37,796 nucleotides of DNA, taken from assembly GCF_902143375.2 (NCBI RefSeq), contig NZ_CABFVA020000079.1, positions 1-37,796 of the forward strand, in the 5' to 3' direction. Positions 3,065-37,796 of the stretch are shown here, piece by piece. The DNA comes from Methylacidimicrobium tartarophylax. GTDB taxonomy: Bacteria > Verrucomicrobiota > Verrucomicrobiia > Methylacidiphilales > Methylacidiphilaceae. Numbering within the stretch: the stretch's first letter is position 1; each line of letters begins with the position of its first letter. Under the pieces are notes generated by a model that worked only from the letters and a program-made list of their open reading frames with translations, searched no databases and had not been told where the DNA came from. Position numbers and translations under genes: made by a program.

Positions 3065-3080
3065 GCGGGAGGCCTCCCGC
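3065..3080. other. 16-bp perfect palindrome after the hydrolase gene
   Basis: GCGGGAGGCCTCCCGC is a perfect 16-bp palindrome 15 bases after the hydrolase stop codon. It could form a hairpin in RNA and help end transcription, but no T tract follows, so it is not a standard intrinsic terminator. Confidence 0.4.
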
Positions 3081-3154
3081 CCGCGCTCGGCGTACCGCCG
3101 CGATGAGGGAAAGCAAGTTCCGCTGCGAGCATCGGAGACAACGGCCTCTTTAAG

Positions 3155-3403
3155 GTGTTCCGAATCTGGTTGGTCCTTGATCTCGCGCTCAGCCTCTTCT
3201 GCAGGCTTCGGACGGCGGAGCGGGACCGGCTCGACCTCGCCAGCGGCCGGTTTGCGCTGATCGAGAAGAGCTGCGAGTTTACGCTCCTTCCTTGGCGGCC
3301 GGTTCTCGAGTGCAATCTCGGCAGGGAGGTTTCTGGAGTTGCGCGTGGCGAGACGATCTCCCGGACGCTCGGCCGGCAGCGCCGCGGACTATCGATCTCG
3401 TGA
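3155..3403 (+). pseudogene. C-terminal fragment of a DUF3363-type relaxase
   Basis: The frame contains ERDRLDLASGRFALIEK, then EFTLLPWRPVLE, GREVSGVARG and LGRQRRGLSIS before a stop at 3403. This pattern is typical of the extreme C-terminus of plasmid/ICE relaxases (VirD2-like, DUF3363). Similarity starts near 3215; the preceding residues do not fit, and the nicking domain with its catalytic Tyr and His triad is absent. It is therefore a remnant of a conjugative or mobilisable element. It sits between a 15-nt direct repeat of the tRNA-Arg 3' flank (3162-3176) and a toxin-antitoxin pair, in line with a decayed integrative island. Confidence 0.6.
3162..3176. repeat. Candidate distal att site (near-copy of tRNA-Arg 3' flank)
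   Basis: GAATCTGGTTGGTCC here matches GAGTCTGGTTGGTCC at 4468-4482 at 14 of 15 positions, in direct orientation. The second copy covers the 3' end of the tRNA-Arg gene, a classic integrase target. The 1.3 kb between the copies contains a relaxase fragment and a toxin-antitoxin pair but no integrase. Confidence 0.4.
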
Positions 3404-3430
3404 TCCGCAGGAAAGAAAGGCTTGCTTAAT

Positions 3431-3448
3431 AGTAACATATATGTGACT
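3431..3448. promoter_or_regulatory. Palindromic operator of the toxin-antitoxin pair
   Basis: AGTAACATATATGTGACT is an 18-nt palindrome with one mismatched pair around the perfect core ACATATATGT. It ends 2 bases before the toxin ATG and is AT-rich against a GC-rich background. Toxin-antitoxin operons are commonly autoregulated by the HTH antitoxin binding such a site. A -10 element inside it would give a very short or leaderless mRNA. Confidence 0.55.
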
Positions 3449-3450
3449 AT

Positions 3451-3768
3451 ATGAGCGTTGGGCCAACCGTCGTCGAGTATGTCCGGGCGGATGGGTCGAA
3501 CCCGTACCGGGCCTGGTTCGATAGCCTGCATGCGCAAGCCGCCGCTAAGGCGGCAAGCGCGGTAGTACGGCTCGAGCTGGGCAACCTGTCACGGGTGAAA
3601 TGGATCGGTACCATTGGTGAGTATCGCATCGATTCGGGGCCGGGCTACCGGATCTACCTCGGCAAGGACGGCGATAAGCTCATCATCCTGCTCGGCGGGG
3701 GCACGAAGCAGCGCCAGCAGGCCGATATCGAGCGCGCGAAGGTGATGTGGGAAGAATACCGGAAGTGA
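3451..3768 (+). CDS. RelE/HigB-like toxin (phage-derived Gp49-like, COG3657 type)
   Basis: A 105-residue addiction-module killer protein. The family pattern is clear: VVEYVRADGSNPYRAWFDSL at the start, RLELGNLSRVKW in the middle, GPGYRIYLGKDGDKLIILLGGGTKQRQQADI and AKVMWEEY at the end. Members are ribosome-dependent mRNA interferases. It is the first gene of a two-gene unit; the antitoxin follows 41 bases downstream, the HigB-HigA order. The 18-nt palindrome just upstream suggests autoregulation. Length is normal and no disruption is seen, so it is probably active. It lies inside the suspected island remnant between the relaxase fragment and tRNA-Arg. Confidence 0.85.
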   Translation: MSVGPTVVEYVRADGSNPYRAWFDSLHAQAAAKAASAVVRLELGNLSRVKWIGTIGEYRIDSGPGYRIYLGKDGDKLIILLGGGTKQRQQADIERAKVMWEEYRK

Positions 3769-3809
3769 AAGGCGGCAGCAGCAAGGCTGCGCGGGAAGAG
3801 GTGAACGAG

Positions 3810-4133
3810 ATGGTACTGACGCGGGATTTCGAGGAGACGATCGTCGAACGCGTCCGCCGTGATCCGAACTTTTCCAAGGCTCTGCTCGACGAGGCGGCCA
3901 CGCTGTTCCTCAACGGGGAGGCCGATACTGCGCGTCTTGTCCTGCGCGATCTCGTCAACGCGACCGTGGGCTTCGAAGCGCTTGCGGTGGAGACGGGAAA
4001 GCCCGCCAAGAGTCTTCACCGCATGCTCTCGAAGAGCGGCAATCCGACGATGGACAATCTCGCCGTCATCCTCGGCGTGGTCCGGAAGAAGCTCGGTGTG
4101 GAGATCAAGGCGCACGCAGTCGAAGCAGGTTAG
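3810..4133 (+). CDS. HTH antitoxin of the RelE/HigB-like pair (COG3636 type)
   Basis: A 107-residue antidote protein. MVLTRDFEETIVERVRRDP at the N-terminus is the typical opening of COG3636 antitoxins, followed by LVNATVGFEALAVETGKPAKSLHRMLSKSGNPTMDNL, a helix-turn-helix of the Xre/HigA sort, and a short tail. I take the ATG at 3810, with AGAGG about 8 bases upstream, because family members begin there; a GTG at 3747 in the same frame would overlap the toxin end by 22 bases and add residues with no family match. It should bind and neutralise the toxin and repress the operon through the palindrome at 3431-3448. Confidence 0.85.
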   Translation: MVLTRDFEETIVERVRRDPNFSKALLDEAATLFLNGEADTARLVLRDLVNATVGFEALAVETGKPAKSLHRMLSKSGNPTMDNLAVILGVVRKKLGVEIKAHAVEAG

Positions 4134-4476
4134 CGTGCGATATTGCCGCCCCCGAAGAAAGGGAACTGGGCGACCAACGAACCCAACTGTTGGGCCGTCG
4201 CAAAAAGCCTGTTCCCGTCCATGCACTAAGGATCGGAAAAGCGAGGCAAGCTCGGCAATCCGCCGTCAAGAAGGATCGACGGAATCGAAGTATCCTTGGC
4301 AGCCAGTCCCCGGGCACAAAATCCGTCGAAAACGGATGGCAAGAACACCGTTTCTTGCCATCCCTCAATGGCAAATCTGCCCCCTCCGGGCATTCCATTC
4401 AGCGGGGAGCTAGGAAAAGCAAGTCACGTTGCAATCACCAGAGGAAACTGCTTCTGTAAGTCGCTTTGAGTCTGGT
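4134..4476. other. Gene-free stretch between the antitoxin and tRNA-Arg
   Basis: About 340 bases with no convincing coding sequence on either strand. It contains the strong hairpin described at 4334-4363 and the proximal att-like repeat at its right end. This is probably residual non-coding DNA of the island. Confidence 0.5.
4334..4363 (-). terminator. 12-bp hairpin, probable terminator of the tRNA-Arg transcript
   Basis: GGATGGCAAGAA (4334-4345) and TTCTTGCCATCC (4352-4363) form a perfect 12-bp stem with a 6-base loop. On the minus strand the stem is followed by GTTTTC, a short T run, and it lies 114 bases beyond the tRNA 3' end. A second, overlapping hairpin (ATCCGT at 4321-4326 with ACGGAT at 4332-4337) could compete with it. 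Confidence 0.5.
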
Positions 4477-4482
4477 TGGTCC
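4468..4482. repeat. Proximal att-like repeat over the tRNA-Arg 3' end
   Basis: GAGTCTGGTTGGTCC overlaps the last bases of the tRNA gene on its minus strand and pairs with 3162-3176 (14 of 15 identical). The suspected island lies on the 3' side of the tRNA, as expected for tRNA-targeting integrases. Confidence 0.4.
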
Positions 4483-4550
4483 CGGGCCGATTCGAACGGC
4501 CGACCAACGCTTTAGGAAAGCGCTGCTCTGTCCTGCTGAGCTACGGGACC
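4477..4550 (-). tRNA. tRNA-Arg (anticodon CCU)
   Basis: The minus strand folds as a complete cloverleaf: acceptor GGTCCCG with CGGGACC, D stem GCTC/GAGC, anticodon stem GCGCT/AGCGT (one G-U pair) with loop TTCCTAA, and T arm GGCCG-TTCGAAT-CGGCC. The loop gives anticodon CCT, which reads the rare arginine codon AGG. The discriminator base is A and the CCA end is not encoded. The 3' end overlaps a candidate attachment repeat. Confidence 0.93.
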
Positions 4551-4752: not shown

Positions 4753-6054
4753 ATGGGCTGGACGAAGGGGAAGTTGCTCACCAGGCTGGCGGCCCTTGCC
4801 TCGCTCTCCTTGACACTGGCGGGGTGCGCGCCGGTACCGAACGTTCTCCTCGGTGCCGATCCGCCCGGAGATCCTCCGAGCCATTCGATCCTTGACGGGG
4901 CCGGCGGCCCGAGCTTGGCGAAGCCGGGCAATCGCGTCACCCTCCTGTCCAGGGGGCCGGAATGGCTGGAGATCCTCTTTGCGGCCATGGAAGGGGCGCG
5001 GGACCATATCAACCTGGAATTTTATATCCTGGAGAATGTGCTCGTCCGCGGTCGGAGCCTGGAAGATCTGCTGATCGAGAAGCTCCGCTCGGGTGTTGCG
5101 GTGAACGTGATCCTGGATGGCTACGGCTCCCATAGGACCGGCCGCGCCGTCCTGGAGCGACTGAGGAAGGAGGGAGCAAGAGTCCTCGTCTTTCATCCGG
5201 TCAACGCGGAAACGATCCTGCGGATCGATGCGATCAACGAGCGGGATCACCGCAAGATCCTGGTGGTCGACGGCAAGGTGGGATTCGTGGGCGGGATCAA
5301 TCTCTACCCGGTCTACCAGAACCAGTCGGAGCCCGGCGCCGTCCAGCGGAGGGATTTTCATCACGTGCTCTGGAACGACCTGGTGGCGCGGATCGAGGGC
5401 CCCGCGGTGGTCGAGTTGCAGCGGGTCTTCTTTGCAACCTGGTCGAGAGAAAAGGGGCCGGCGGTCGTAGAGAAGGACTACTTCCCGAAGGTCGCGAAGG
5501 CGGGAGAGGAGCGGGTGCGGGTGATCGGAAGCGCGCCGAAGGAGAATCGGGCGCTCTACTACATCCAGCTTCTGGAAGCGATCCACGCGGCCCGGCGGAG
5601 GATCGATCTCTGCACCGGCTCTTTTGTCCCTACTCGTCAAATGGTCGAGGAACTCGTTCAGGCGGCCCGGAGAGGCGTCGCCGTGCGGCTCGTCCTGCCG
5701 TCGGCCCTCTACCATCCGGTGATCGAGATTGCCGGGAGCGCGGATTACGGGGCTCTCTTGCGAGCGGGGGTGCGGATTTGGGAGATGCCCGAGGAGGTGC
5801 TCCACGGCAAGCTCGCCACGATCGACGGGGCTTGGACCGCGGTCGGATCGTCGAACCTCGACGAGCGGAGCGTTCTCTTCAATCAGGAAGTCGATGCCAT
5901 CGTCTGGGGGAGGGAGACGGCTTCCACAGCCCGGGGGATCGTCGAAGAGAGGATCTTTCGGTCTCGGGAGATCGCGCTTGGACCATGGCGACGCCGGGAC
6001 GTCTTCGAGCGGGTGAACGAGTTCTTCGCCTCGCTCTGGCGCGTCCTTCTGTAG
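4753..6054 (+). CDS. Lipoprotein phospholipase D / cardiolipin synthase, first tandem copy
   Basis: A 433-residue protein of the PLD superfamily, ClsB-like. It carries a lipoprotein signal with lipobox LAGC (Cys25) and two HKD motifs: His166, Lys168, Asp173 in DHRKILVVDGKVGFVGG, and His351, Lys353, Asp358 in HGKLATIDGAWTAVGSSNLD. The family joins phosphatidylglycerol with a second lipid to make cardiolipin, or acts as a phosphodiesterase. Export and lipid anchoring are unusual, since most Cls enzymes are held by N-terminal helices on the inner membrane; this suggests action on the periplasmic face. The next gene is a close paralogue 13 bases downstream. No strong Shine-Dalgarno is seen before the ATG. 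The exact substrate is inference. Confidence 0.87.
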   Translation: MGWTKGKLLTRLAALASLSLTLAGCAPVPNVLLGADPPGDPPSHSILDGAGGPSLAKPGNRVTLLSRGPEWLEILFAAMEGARDHINLEFYILENVLVRGRSLEDLLIEKLRSGVAVNVILDGYGSHRTGRAVLERLRKEGARVLVFHPVNAETILRIDAINERDHRKILVVDGKVGFVGGINLYPVYQNQSEPGAVQRRDFHHVLWNDLVARIEGPAVVELQRVFFATWSREKGPAVVEKDYFPKVAKAGEERVRVIGSAPKENRALYYIQLLEAIHAARRRIDLCTGSFVPTRQMVEELVQAARRGVAVRLVLPSALYHPVIEIAGSADYGALLRAGVRIWEMPEEVLHGKLATIDGAWTAVGSSNLDERSVLFNQEVDAIVWGRETASTARGIVEERIFRSREIALGPWRRRDVFERVNEFFASLWRVLL

Positions 6055-6067
6055 AAACCCCTTCGCG

Positions 6068-7366
6068 ATGCACCAGACCGAAGCGCAGCTCCGCTTGGCA
6101 GGACTCGCCCTCTGCCTCCTCGTGCTCGTCGGCTGTGCGCGGACGCCGAAGATCGTTCTCCGGGAGGATCCGCCCGGAGATGCGCTCCGAGAGAACTTGG
6201 CCGCCGATGCGGCCTTGTTCCCGCGCCCGGTGGCGTCGGGCAACCGCGTGACGCTCCTGCCCGACGGTATGCGCACCTTCGAGGCGATGTTCGCGGCGAT
6301 GGAGCAGGCAGACGATCACATCAACTTGGAATACTACATCTTCGAGAATGTCCGCGTGGGGGGAAGGAGCCTCGAGGCTCTTCTGGGGCAAAAGCTCCGC
6401 TCCGGCGTCGCGGTGAACATTATCCTCGACGGTTACGGTTCCTACCGGACGGATCCCGCTGTCCTGGATCGGTTGCGGAAGGCGGGCGCGCGGATTCTGG
6501 TCTTCCGCCCGCTGACTCCGGAGACGATGCTCGAGGTGACCAAGGCGAACGATCGCGATCATCGGAAAATCCTGGTGGTCGATGGCCGAGTGGGTTTCGT
6601 CGGGGGCGTGAACCTCGCCCGGGTCTACGAGAATCACTCGGATCCCCGGGCGGCCGCGCGGGGTGACTTTCGCCACGCTTACTGGAGCGATATCGCCGCC
6701 CGGATCGAAGGGCCGGCGGTGGCCGATCTGCAGCGTCTCTTCTTTGCGACCTGGTCGAGCCAGCACGGGCCGGTGATGGAGCGGAGGAGCTATTTTCCGA
6801 AGGAGGCCGAGGTGGGAAGCGAGCGGGTGCGGGTGATCGGAAGCGGACCCGGACGGGATGAGGCGATCTATTATGGGAGCTTCCTGGAAGCGGTCCACAT
6901 CGCGCGCCGGAGCATCGATCTCTCGACCGGCTTTTTCGTACCCACCCGACAGGAGGTTCAGGAGTTGGCCCAGGCTGCTCGGCGCGGGGTCGCCGTCCGG
7001 CTCGTCCTGCCCTCCCCCGTCTATGACCGGGAAGTGCGCGCGGCGGGGAGAACCGACTACGGGCGGCTGCTCGGAGCCGGCGTCCGGATCTGGGAGGTGG
7101 AGGGGGCGGTGCTCCATGCGAAGTTCGCGACCATCGATGGAGCGTGGACCGCCATCGGGTCTTCCAACATCGACCGGAGAAGCGTGGTCTACAACGACGA
7201 GGTCGATGCCATCGTCTTCGGGGGAAAGACCGCGGGGGCCGCCCGCGCCATCATCGAGCGGAACATCTCCTGGTCCCGGGAAGTTACTCTTGGCGCGTGG
7301 CGTCATCGGGACTTCCGGGAGAGGGCAAACGAGTTCTTCGCCTCGTTCTGGCGCTTCTTGATGTAG
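6068..7366 (+). CDS. Lipoprotein phospholipase D / cardiolipin synthase, second tandem copy
   Basis: A 432-residue paralogue of the preceding gene, alike along its whole length, including the RVTLL, HINLEYYI, LDGYGS and RVRVIGS blocks. It has its own lipobox (LVGC) and both HKD motifs: DHRKILVVDGRVGFVGG and HAKFATIDGAWTAIGSSNID. Both active sites are therefore retained, so the pair comes from tandem duplication with both copies maintained rather than one decaying. The N-terminal segments after the Cys differ most. The 13-base gap implies co-transcription; the downstream recD2 may share the transcript. Possible roles are two lipid specificities or a two-subunit enzyme. Confidence 0.87.
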   Translation: MHQTEAQLRLAGLALCLLVLVGCARTPKIVLREDPPGDALRENLAADAALFPRPVASGNRVTLLPDGMRTFEAMFAAMEQADDHINLEYYIFENVRVGGRSLEALLGQKLRSGVAVNIILDGYGSYRTDPAVLDRLRKAGARILVFRPLTPETMLEVTKANDRDHRKILVVDGRVGFVGGVNLARVYENHSDPRAAARGDFRHAYWSDIAARIEGPAVADLQRLFFATWSSQHGPVMERRSYFPKEAEVGSERVRVIGSGPGRDEAIYYGSFLEAVHIARRSIDLSTGFFVPTRQEVQELAQAARRGVAVRLVLPSPVYDREVRAAGRTDYGRLLGAGVRIWEVEGAVLHAKFATIDGAWTAIGSSNIDRRSVVYNDEVDAIVFGGKTAGAARAIIERNISWSREVTLGAWRHRDFRERANEFFASFWRFLM

Positions 7367-16438: not shown

Positions 16439-16876
16439 TTATTTCCCGGGCGTGGCGTTCGGGTTCGCAGCGCCAGGAAGAAGACAGCCTTTCTGTTTCC
16501 GCCACCGCTCCAGCAAGCCGGCCAGCAGGGATCCCAGGAAGCCGCCGGCCACATCGGCTGCCCAATCGCGAGGATCGGGCGTCCGGCCCGGAATGAGCCG
16601 CTGGTAGTTTTCATCGATCGCCCCGAGCAGGGCAACGGCGGCAACCGCCCAAGGCGTGCTTCCGACGGCCCGCCGGGCAAGCAGCCCGGCGCCCGAGTAG
16701 GCGGTGGCGTGGAGGAGCTTGTCGTTCACGTGGTTGAGTTCCTGCGGCAGCTTGGGCCCCGGGATGCTCGAGAGGGAGAGGAGGAGCAGGGCATAGAGGA
16801 AAAAGGCGATCCATCGGAGGGACCGCCTTCCCGAAATCCCCGGCGTGGGAGTCGTCTGTTTGGAGGTGGGGCTCAC
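16439..16876 (-). CDS. VanZ-like membrane protein
   Basis: A 145-residue protein with about four hydrophobic segments. The VanZ signature is LRWIAFFLYALLLLSLSSIPG, then NDKLLHATAYSGAGLLARRA, LLGAIDENYQRLIPGRTPDPRDWAADVAGGFLGSLLA. The conserved acidic E in the DE(N)YQ motif and the RxxDxxD-like stretch are present. It starts at the GTG at 16876, which overlaps the stop codon of the NusG-like gene (GTGA), so the pair is translationally coupled. VanZ proteins are linked to teicoplanin resistance in Gram-positives, but many sit with surface-polysaccharide genes; here the NusG partner hints at the latter. Confidence 0.83.
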   Translation of the reverse strand: MSPTSKQTTPTPGISGRRSLRWIAFFLYALLLLSLSSIPGPKLPQELNHVNDKLLHATAYSGAGLLARRAVGSTPWAVAAVALLGAIDENYQRLIPGRTPDPRDWAADVAGGFLGSLLAGLLERWRKQKGCLLPGAANPNATPGK

Positions 16877-17475
16877 GAAGCGGACTTGCCTTTCCCCGGG
16901 GTCGGTACCCCCAGGCTTTCCAGGACGCTCTTTCGGGTCGCCCGCAAGTCGGGGAGCACGACGTCGGAAGAGGAGACCTCGGTCTCGATCTGGCGGCCGA
17001 GCCAATCGAGGAGGATCCGGACCCGTTCCTTGCCGGGGAGGAATTTCCGGACGACCGCGTCAAGACCGCGAAAAGGGCCGGTGCCGATTTTGACCTCCAT
17101 GCCCGGCTCCAGGTTGGATTCCAAGGTGATCTGGTGGTCGGGGCCGAGAAGCTGACGGAGCTGGTCGGTGGCGGAGCAGGGGATCAAGGGGTAGCGTCCG
17201 CCGAAGTGGACGATCTTCGCCACTCCTTGTGCATAGCGGACGGCGTTGAGGCGCAAGAGCGGCTCGAAGCAGGCAAAAAGATAGCCGGGGAAGAGAGGCT
17301 CGGTGGTCCACGCCTGCTTGTCTTTGCGCAGGCGGCGATAGCGGATCAAGGGCAAGAGCGACTCCACATCCTCGAATTGGAGAAGAGATTGGTGGGCGAT
17401 CCGCTCGCGCTTGGGTTGCGTCTGCACACAGAACCACAACCGCAGGCCCGGGGGAAATATCGTCTGGTCCGGCAT
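16873..17475 (-). CDS. NusG paralogue, RfaH/UpxY-like transcription antiterminator
   Basis: A 200-residue protein with an N-terminal NGN domain (LRLWFCVQTQPKRERIAHQSL with the conserved W-F-V-x-T pattern, then EPLFPGYLFACFE) and a C-terminal KOW motif (LEPGMEVKIGTGPFRGLDAVV). These specialised NusG paralogues bind paused RNA polymerase and help transcribe long operons, commonly for polysaccharide synthesis. It starts at the ATG at 17475 (MPDQTIF); residues further upstream in frame are low-complexity. It shares the GTGA junction with the VanZ gene. No housekeeping neighbours (secE, rplK) are present, so this is not nusG itself. No polysaccharide operon lies in the window. Confidence 0.87.
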   Translation of the reverse strand: MPDQTIFPPGLRLWFCVQTQPKRERIAHQSLLQFEDVESLLPLIRYRRLRKDKQAWTTEPLFPGYLFACFEPLLRLNAVRYAQGVAKIVHFGGRYPLIPCSATDQLRQLLGPDHQITLESNLEPGMEVKIGTGPFRGLDAVVRKFLPGKERVRILLDWLGRQIETEVSSSDVVLPDLRATRKSVLESLGVPTPGKGKSAS

Positions 17476-37695: not shown

Positions 37696-37737
37696 TCAGG
37701 CATGTCGGCTTAGGGCCTTAATTGTTGGGGTTCGCAT
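37696..37737 (-). CDS. Candidate 13-residue micro-ORF with a strong Shine-Dalgarno
   Basis: The minus strand reads AGGAGG, five bases, then ATG and codons for MRTPTIKALSRHA and TGA. The ribosome site is about the best in the window, far stronger than those of most real genes here. It lies about 95 bases upstream of the exported gene at 37600 and is followed by a small hairpin (GGGCA-N5-TGCCC). It could be a leader peptide controlling the downstream gene. No family known; coding status is unproven. Confidence 0.35.
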   Translation of the reverse strand: MRTPTIKALSRHA

Positions 37738-37796
37738 GATTACCTCCTAGAAAATCGCCGTCCGTTGCTGATCGGGCGTGCGGTGCTTCGGGAGGT

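Follow-up and report, generated by a model that had tools for sequence, protein, structure and literature searches.

A probable remnant of integrative elements with a surviving toxin-antitoxin pair at tRNA-Arg(CCU) in Methylacidimicrobium tartarophylax

The window analyzed here is a 37,796-nt stretch of Methylacidimicrobium tartarophylax DNA, corresponding to contig C79 (63% G+C) of a 2.33-Mb genome in 137 contigs. We propose that its segment from about 3098 to 4476 is what is left of at least one, and probably two stacked, integrative elements that a tyrosine integrase put into the tRNA-Arg(CCU) gene, a reading to which we assign a probability of about 0.86. Stacking is probable because the repeat at the left end of the segment is a second, decayed attachment arm. 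The original prediction of a decayed integrative island at this tRNA with an intact toxin-antitoxin pair was supported by the ARAGORN call of the tRNA (4477-4550, minus strand), by an arm behind it, by gene relics and by open toxin and antitoxin genes.

Comparisons within the genus covered seven genomes (G000-G006, with G000 being the genome of the window), and searches with arm models were run family-wide over 13 genomes. No Rfam family matched the window at the gathering threshold. The accessible part of a study of the Methylacidiphilum strains Kam1, SolV and V4 (PMC6688271) mentions neither an integrase nor tRNA-Arg.

Attachment arms behind tRNA genes

The tRNA-Arg(CCU) gene, the integration target, is intact, and homology to genus relatives resumes at its 3' end (4471-4477). 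Directly 3' of the tRNA lies a hairpin-forming attachment-site (P') arm with the motif TTTCCTCTGGTGA (4409-4477, minus strand), which scored 79.5 bits with R1, a covariance model built from four copies of the repeat. The second, decayed arm lies at 3103-3171 on the same strand and probably stems from an older element; taken alone it is weak (14.9 bits, E = 0.031), which counts against our main reading. The 15-nt repeat originally proposed to flank the island is present (3162-3176 and 4468-4482, 14/15 identical), and one copy covers the tRNA 3' end to the extent of its last 6 nt. It is, however, the edge of an ungapped 71-bp repeat comprising arm and core (3106-3176 and 4412-4482, 52/71 identical). 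Chance does not account for the longer repeat, as 300 dinucleotide shuffles reached 38 matches at most, whereas the 15-mer alone is modest, with 14/15 reached in 2 of the 300. An integron attC site was considered and rejected, since by eye the two ends of the 71-bp repeat lack matching core boxes.

A third copy of the repeat in the genome is located directly behind tRNA-Thr(CGU). Across the 13 family genomes, R1 found 15 matches with E no higher than 1, and seven of these have E below 1e-4. All seven begin at the 3' end of a tRNA gene, either Arg-CCU, Arg-UCU, Thr-CGU or Thr-UGU; four had been used to build the model and three are independent of it. The other eight are weak, and two of these lie about 20 nt from tRNA-Pro(UGG) on the Methylacidiphilum side (L184 in G009 and L185 in G007, E = 0.4-0.5). 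A second model, R2, built from four copies of a variant arm, gave six matches at E up to 0.1, of which two are independent of the model. Four of the six lie behind intact tRNAs and two behind copies of a tRNA 3' half beside intact integrase genes (contigs C49 and C101). Displaced tRNA copies downstream of the arms were looked for at ten loci including the window, and none of the other nine showed a convincing one.

Arms are present in four of the seven genus genomes. They are absent at Arg-CCU and Thr-CGU in G001, G002 and G005, and at Arg-UCU in G001, G004 and G005. Since the same tRNAs lack it in other species, the presence of the arm is variable, and it does not belong to the tRNA gene itself. 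That the arms form one conserved module for integrases hitting all four tRNAs, with a lineage that swaps its core and keeps its arm sites and with leftover arms perhaps retained as new tRNA trailers or terminators, appears quite unlikely to us.

We also considered the arm as a structured RNA, a reading that came out weak. In the seven type I arms, 79% of the stem cells are paired, above every slid control and equaled by 17 of 500 column shuffles; adding a pseudoknot (CCAGA/TCTGG) raises this to 84%, equaled by 5 of 500, with the alignment being fitted to the model and with inverted integrase sites able to yield the same pairing pattern. Changes on both sides of a pair were found in only 3 of the 13 stem pairs, and the fold z-scores of five type I sequences, among them the relic, ranged from -1.42 to 0.77.

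Relics and a toxin-antitoxin pair between the arms

At the left end, positions 3165-3176 (minus strand) hold a core remnant, TCTGGTTGGTCC, a candidate displaced tRNA fragment consisting of the last 6 nt of a tRNA copy and 6 trailer nt (ACCAGA), cut off at the junction with an integrase relic. The relic (3171-3235, plus strand; box I region of a tyrosine integrase) borders the left repeat on its inner side, in the orientation seen in intact elements. Over its 65 bp it shares 80% DNA identity with the integrase gene on contig C49 of the same genome (E = 4e-10) and 72% with that on C101, and these two are exactly the integrases that it matches. Its protein score of 69 compares with at most 45 in 500 shuffles. 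The earlier statement that the island has lost its integrase therefore holds for an intact gene, of which there is none, and has to be amended for this relic. The left edge of the relic and the core share TGGTCC/TGGTTCC, which suggests a deletion through microhomology at their junction.

The relic runs in frame into a relaxase C-terminal fragment (3224-3403, plus strand; DUF3363, RlxS-like). As originally predicted, this fragment is genuine: residues 24-76 of the ORF at 3155-3403 match Pfam DUF3363 with E = 1.4e-18, covering profile positions 320-372 of 375. What the window holds is a C-terminal piece, as opposed to the complete relaxase by which an integrative mobilizable element is recognized. 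The match is the only one for DUF3363 in the seven genus genomes, and the best plasmid relatives of the fragment are mostly alphaproteobacterial, some of them annotated as rlxS or DUF3363.

The toxin gene (3451-3768, plus strand) encodes a RelE/ParE (HigB-like) protein of the HI1419 family, matching NCBIfam TIGR02683 (upstrm_HI1419) with E = 1.3e-24 and 86.4 bits, above the cut-off of 62.85. It is followed by an antitoxin gene, probably of the HI1420 family (3810-4133, plus strand), whose match to TIGR02684 (dnstrm_HI1420) is weak and below the cut-off (E = 0.0078, 16.4 bits against 53.7); the toxin-first order of the pair was as predicted. The antitoxin frame is open from GTG 3747 (3747-4133), and its start is likely ATG 3810; many homologs align only from about residue 16-22. 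A scan of genome contigs for the antitoxin yielded 339 loci, of which 80 were kept. A relative of the toxin is encoded in 72 of these 80, whereas the relaxase fragment lies beside the pair in none of them, which also counts against the main reading. Alphaproteobacterial pairs are among the nearest (L039-L041; toxin 79-85% and antitoxin 71-80% identical). Among solved structures, the toxin hit a single de novo protein (E = 0.00099), which is not informative, and the antitoxin had no match.

Adjoining the toxin start is the near-perfect operator palindrome that had been predicted, TAGTAACATATATGTGACTA (3430-3449), with 9/10 arm matches (P = 0.0016, mononucleotide shuffles). Among 64 relatives with enough upstream DNA, 57 carry the operator near the toxin start at a threshold of at least 14/20, compared with 0 of 64 for a control stretch. 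A palindrome of at least 7/10 is less telling (47/66 versus 21/64 controls). With both genes open and the operator kept, the pair is intact as judged from its sequence, and toxin activity, autoregulation and addiction are presumed.

The remainder of the segment had been described as a gene-free tail, a description that had to be dropped. Positions 4178-4410 (minus strand) read as the truncated 5' end of an ISL3-family insertion sequence, with about 190 bp of leader and 44 bp from the start of the transposase gene. This stretch is 87% identical to copies in G006 that abut an ISL3 transposase ORF (L123, 5042-6250), and most genus alignments of it stop at 4410. A second ISL3 terminus was looked for and not found; in place of a complete element with transposase gene and terminal inverted repeats, the window retains 233 bp. 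Repeated sequence was also observed at the contig edges. Positions 1-62 recur in at least 39 further copies in the genome, with others in G003, and are not notably self-folding, while positions 37717-37796 are 96-99% identical to G006 stretches near transposase-like genes or tRNA-Thr and probably represent an insertion-sequence end.

Intact relatives, boundaries and competing readings

Contigs C49 and C101 display the same parts in an undamaged order: an integrase gene reading away, about 50 bp of a tRNA 3' half, then an arm. The half-copy on C101 is called a tRNA by ARAGORN, with a 5' half unlike that of the intact gene on C43. On C49, where the arm follows a tRNA-Arg(UCU) half-copy (L229, 2192-3554), RloB- and AAA-like genes come next; PADLOC models assign these to AbiL, which suggests stacked defense cargo. 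At another locus (L176, 2218-3584, contig C65), the arm behind tRNA-Thr(CGU) is followed by a gene for an Mrr-type restriction endonuclease. End overlaps indicating circularity were not found for contigs C49, C101, C188 and C43.

On the Methylacidiphilum side, an element of 9.8 kb is preserved in full in G009, bounded by a full-length tRNA-Arg(CCU) and a 45-nt tRNA copy. Its integrase is related, with a frame that ends about 50 bp from the tRNA copy. In G007 and G011 the alignment of this region passes through only one tRNA, and the element is missing (flanks 91-95% identical); beyond the tRNA copy, G009 has a further stretch of about 1 kb without a counterpart in these two genomes. The arm of G009 went undetected by both R1 and R2, a further point against the main reading. 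It contains the motif CCTCTGG twice, and the integrase side of the G009 element has TCTGGTAGAAG; both motifs are candidate integrase arm sites. Of 62 genomes from the order, 23 encode related integrases at a threshold of E = 1e-20. The C101 and G009 elements encode excisionase-like HTH and DUF3854 proteins, that of C101 matching DNA primase families, and no relaxase was found by Pfam among their proteins scanned. The relaxase scrap of the window may for that reason come from another element, which likewise weighs against the main reading.

For the segment itself, alignments of five of six genus relatives (G001, G002, G003, G005 and G006) break at 4471-4477 on the right; the sixth, G004, aligns only briefly close to the end of a contig and is uninformative. 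At the left boundary, only G006 among the relatives compared has the neighboring CBAH gene, and its match ends at 3080 (BLAST) or 3097 (local alignment). Breaks at or near the repeats were thus seen on the right in these five relatives and on the left in G006 alone. G006 shares both flanks, and between them lies a different island of about 6 kb with a variant arm. G001 and G005 have 1.27 kb with other genes between the tRNA and rhlE, which in G005 we take, by eye, to be NusG- and VanZ-like. The window matches this NusG/VanZ-like stretch of G001 and G005 at 16491-17465; as the stretch is not beside the tRNA here, the region has been rearranged. A clean, single-copy empty site for the exact window segment was not present among the relatives compared, which counts against our reading, so that the predicted empty tRNA-Arg site is seen only for the related G009 element. 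Near the tRNA, a pair of adjacent genes for phospholipase D-like proteins (4753-7366) shows about 70% identity between its members and is kept in genus relatives.

We suggest the following course of events. A tyrosine integrase of a kind still intact elsewhere in the genome would have inserted elements into tRNA-Arg(CCU), each incoming element bringing an arm, a core of about 50 bp copying the tRNA 3' half, and an integrase gene directed away from the core. Insertion would rebuild the tRNA and leave the arm just behind it, and a further element could stack at the same site. An insertion sequence may then have landed beside the intact arm and been truncated. Two deletions are assumed: one would have fused the integrase gene with the core remnant, perhaps by way of the TGGTCC/TGGTTCC that both contain, and the other the integrase with the relaxase, leaving the toxin-antitoxin operon under its own, presumably autoregulatory, operator. 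Lacking an integrase and the tRNA portion of the core, the segment is probably no longer able to excise, and the loss of both should lock the pair in the chromosome. The pair may be retained because cells that lose it would be poisoned, or by drift.

A piecemeal origin is unlikely, although several observations would suit it. The integrase scrap, the relaxase scrap, the toxin-antitoxin pair and the insertion-sequence end might have been gathered singly by illegitimate recombination at a rearrangement-prone spot, with the pair never having belonged to the tRNA-targeting element. In the seven genus genomes the relaxase family is confined to this locus, the pair is nearest to alphaproteobacterial ones, the proteins scanned from the intact elements include no relaxase, and genes from the tRNA site of G001 and G005 now lie at 16.5 kb in the window. 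Piecemeal gathering does not, however, explain why arm, core remnant and integrase relic follow the order and orientation of intact elements, or why all scraps are confined between two arms.

The two repeats could instead be attL and attR of one element only, with the left arm copy being its far end, and the 12-nt core match identical at both sites would fit this. We nevertheless regard it as decidedly improbable: the repeat continues through the arm, which is expected once in a single insertion, and C49 and C101 show a core followed by another arm. The flanking repeats first proposed are therefore more likely to be the starts of two stacked elements. There is, finally, only the slimmest chance that the hairpin represents a small RNA or a tRNA trailer passed on by vertical descent. 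It can fold, possibly with the pseudoknot, and its paired cells exceed all slid controls, yet the fold z-scores and the few two-sided changes speak against it, sister species lack the hairpin at these tRNAs, and its linkage to integrase genes with tRNA half-copies refutes this reading.

Relation to known systems

The remnant resembles the tRNA-gene islands covered, as far as the accessible part of the article goes, by Islander (PMC4383910), in which a tyrosine integrase targets a tRNA gene, the tRNA is rebuilt, a 3' fragment is displaced and tandem insertions are known. It differs in its tRNA fragment of 6 nt, its mere integrase scrap and its length of less than 2 kb, features for which the filters described there would reject it. 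With the 9.8-kb G009 and the C101 elements it shares a related integrase and the order of integrase and core; the target tRNA is the same in G009 and another in C101. Those elements differ by their excisionase-like HTH and DUF3854 primase-like proteins and by having neither a relaxase nor the toxin-antitoxin pair of the window among the proteins scanned.

The pair itself is arranged like the type II system HI1419/HI1420 (TIGR02683/TIGR02684), with toxin first, antitoxin second, adjacent frames and an operator at the toxin start, but its antitoxin falls below the curated cut-off and its flanks are relics. Like mosAT of SXT, which the accessible text of PMC2654960 presents as a toxin-antitoxin system stabilizing an integrated element, it is found on an integrated element. 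Whereas mosAT guards a mobile element, the element in the window would be dead, the pair alone surviving.

A limited literature search on Methylacidimicrobium genomes and genomic islands and on tRNA, attP and integrase satellites in Verrucomicrobia found no description of this element family, which seems to be undescribed so far but conventional. The segment would be a well-preserved example of an ordinary process, in which an element dies at a tRNA while a toxin-antitoxin operon and its operator survive. It also brings to light an element family of methanotrophic Verrucomicrobia that targets tRNA genes, the host being an acid-loving methane-eater. As the arm is recognizable, it can mark dead islands after the integrase has been lost, which makes it possible to trace such islands along with the genes that lie behind them; in the cases examined these include an Mrr-type restriction gene behind one arm and RloB/AbiL-like genes behind another.
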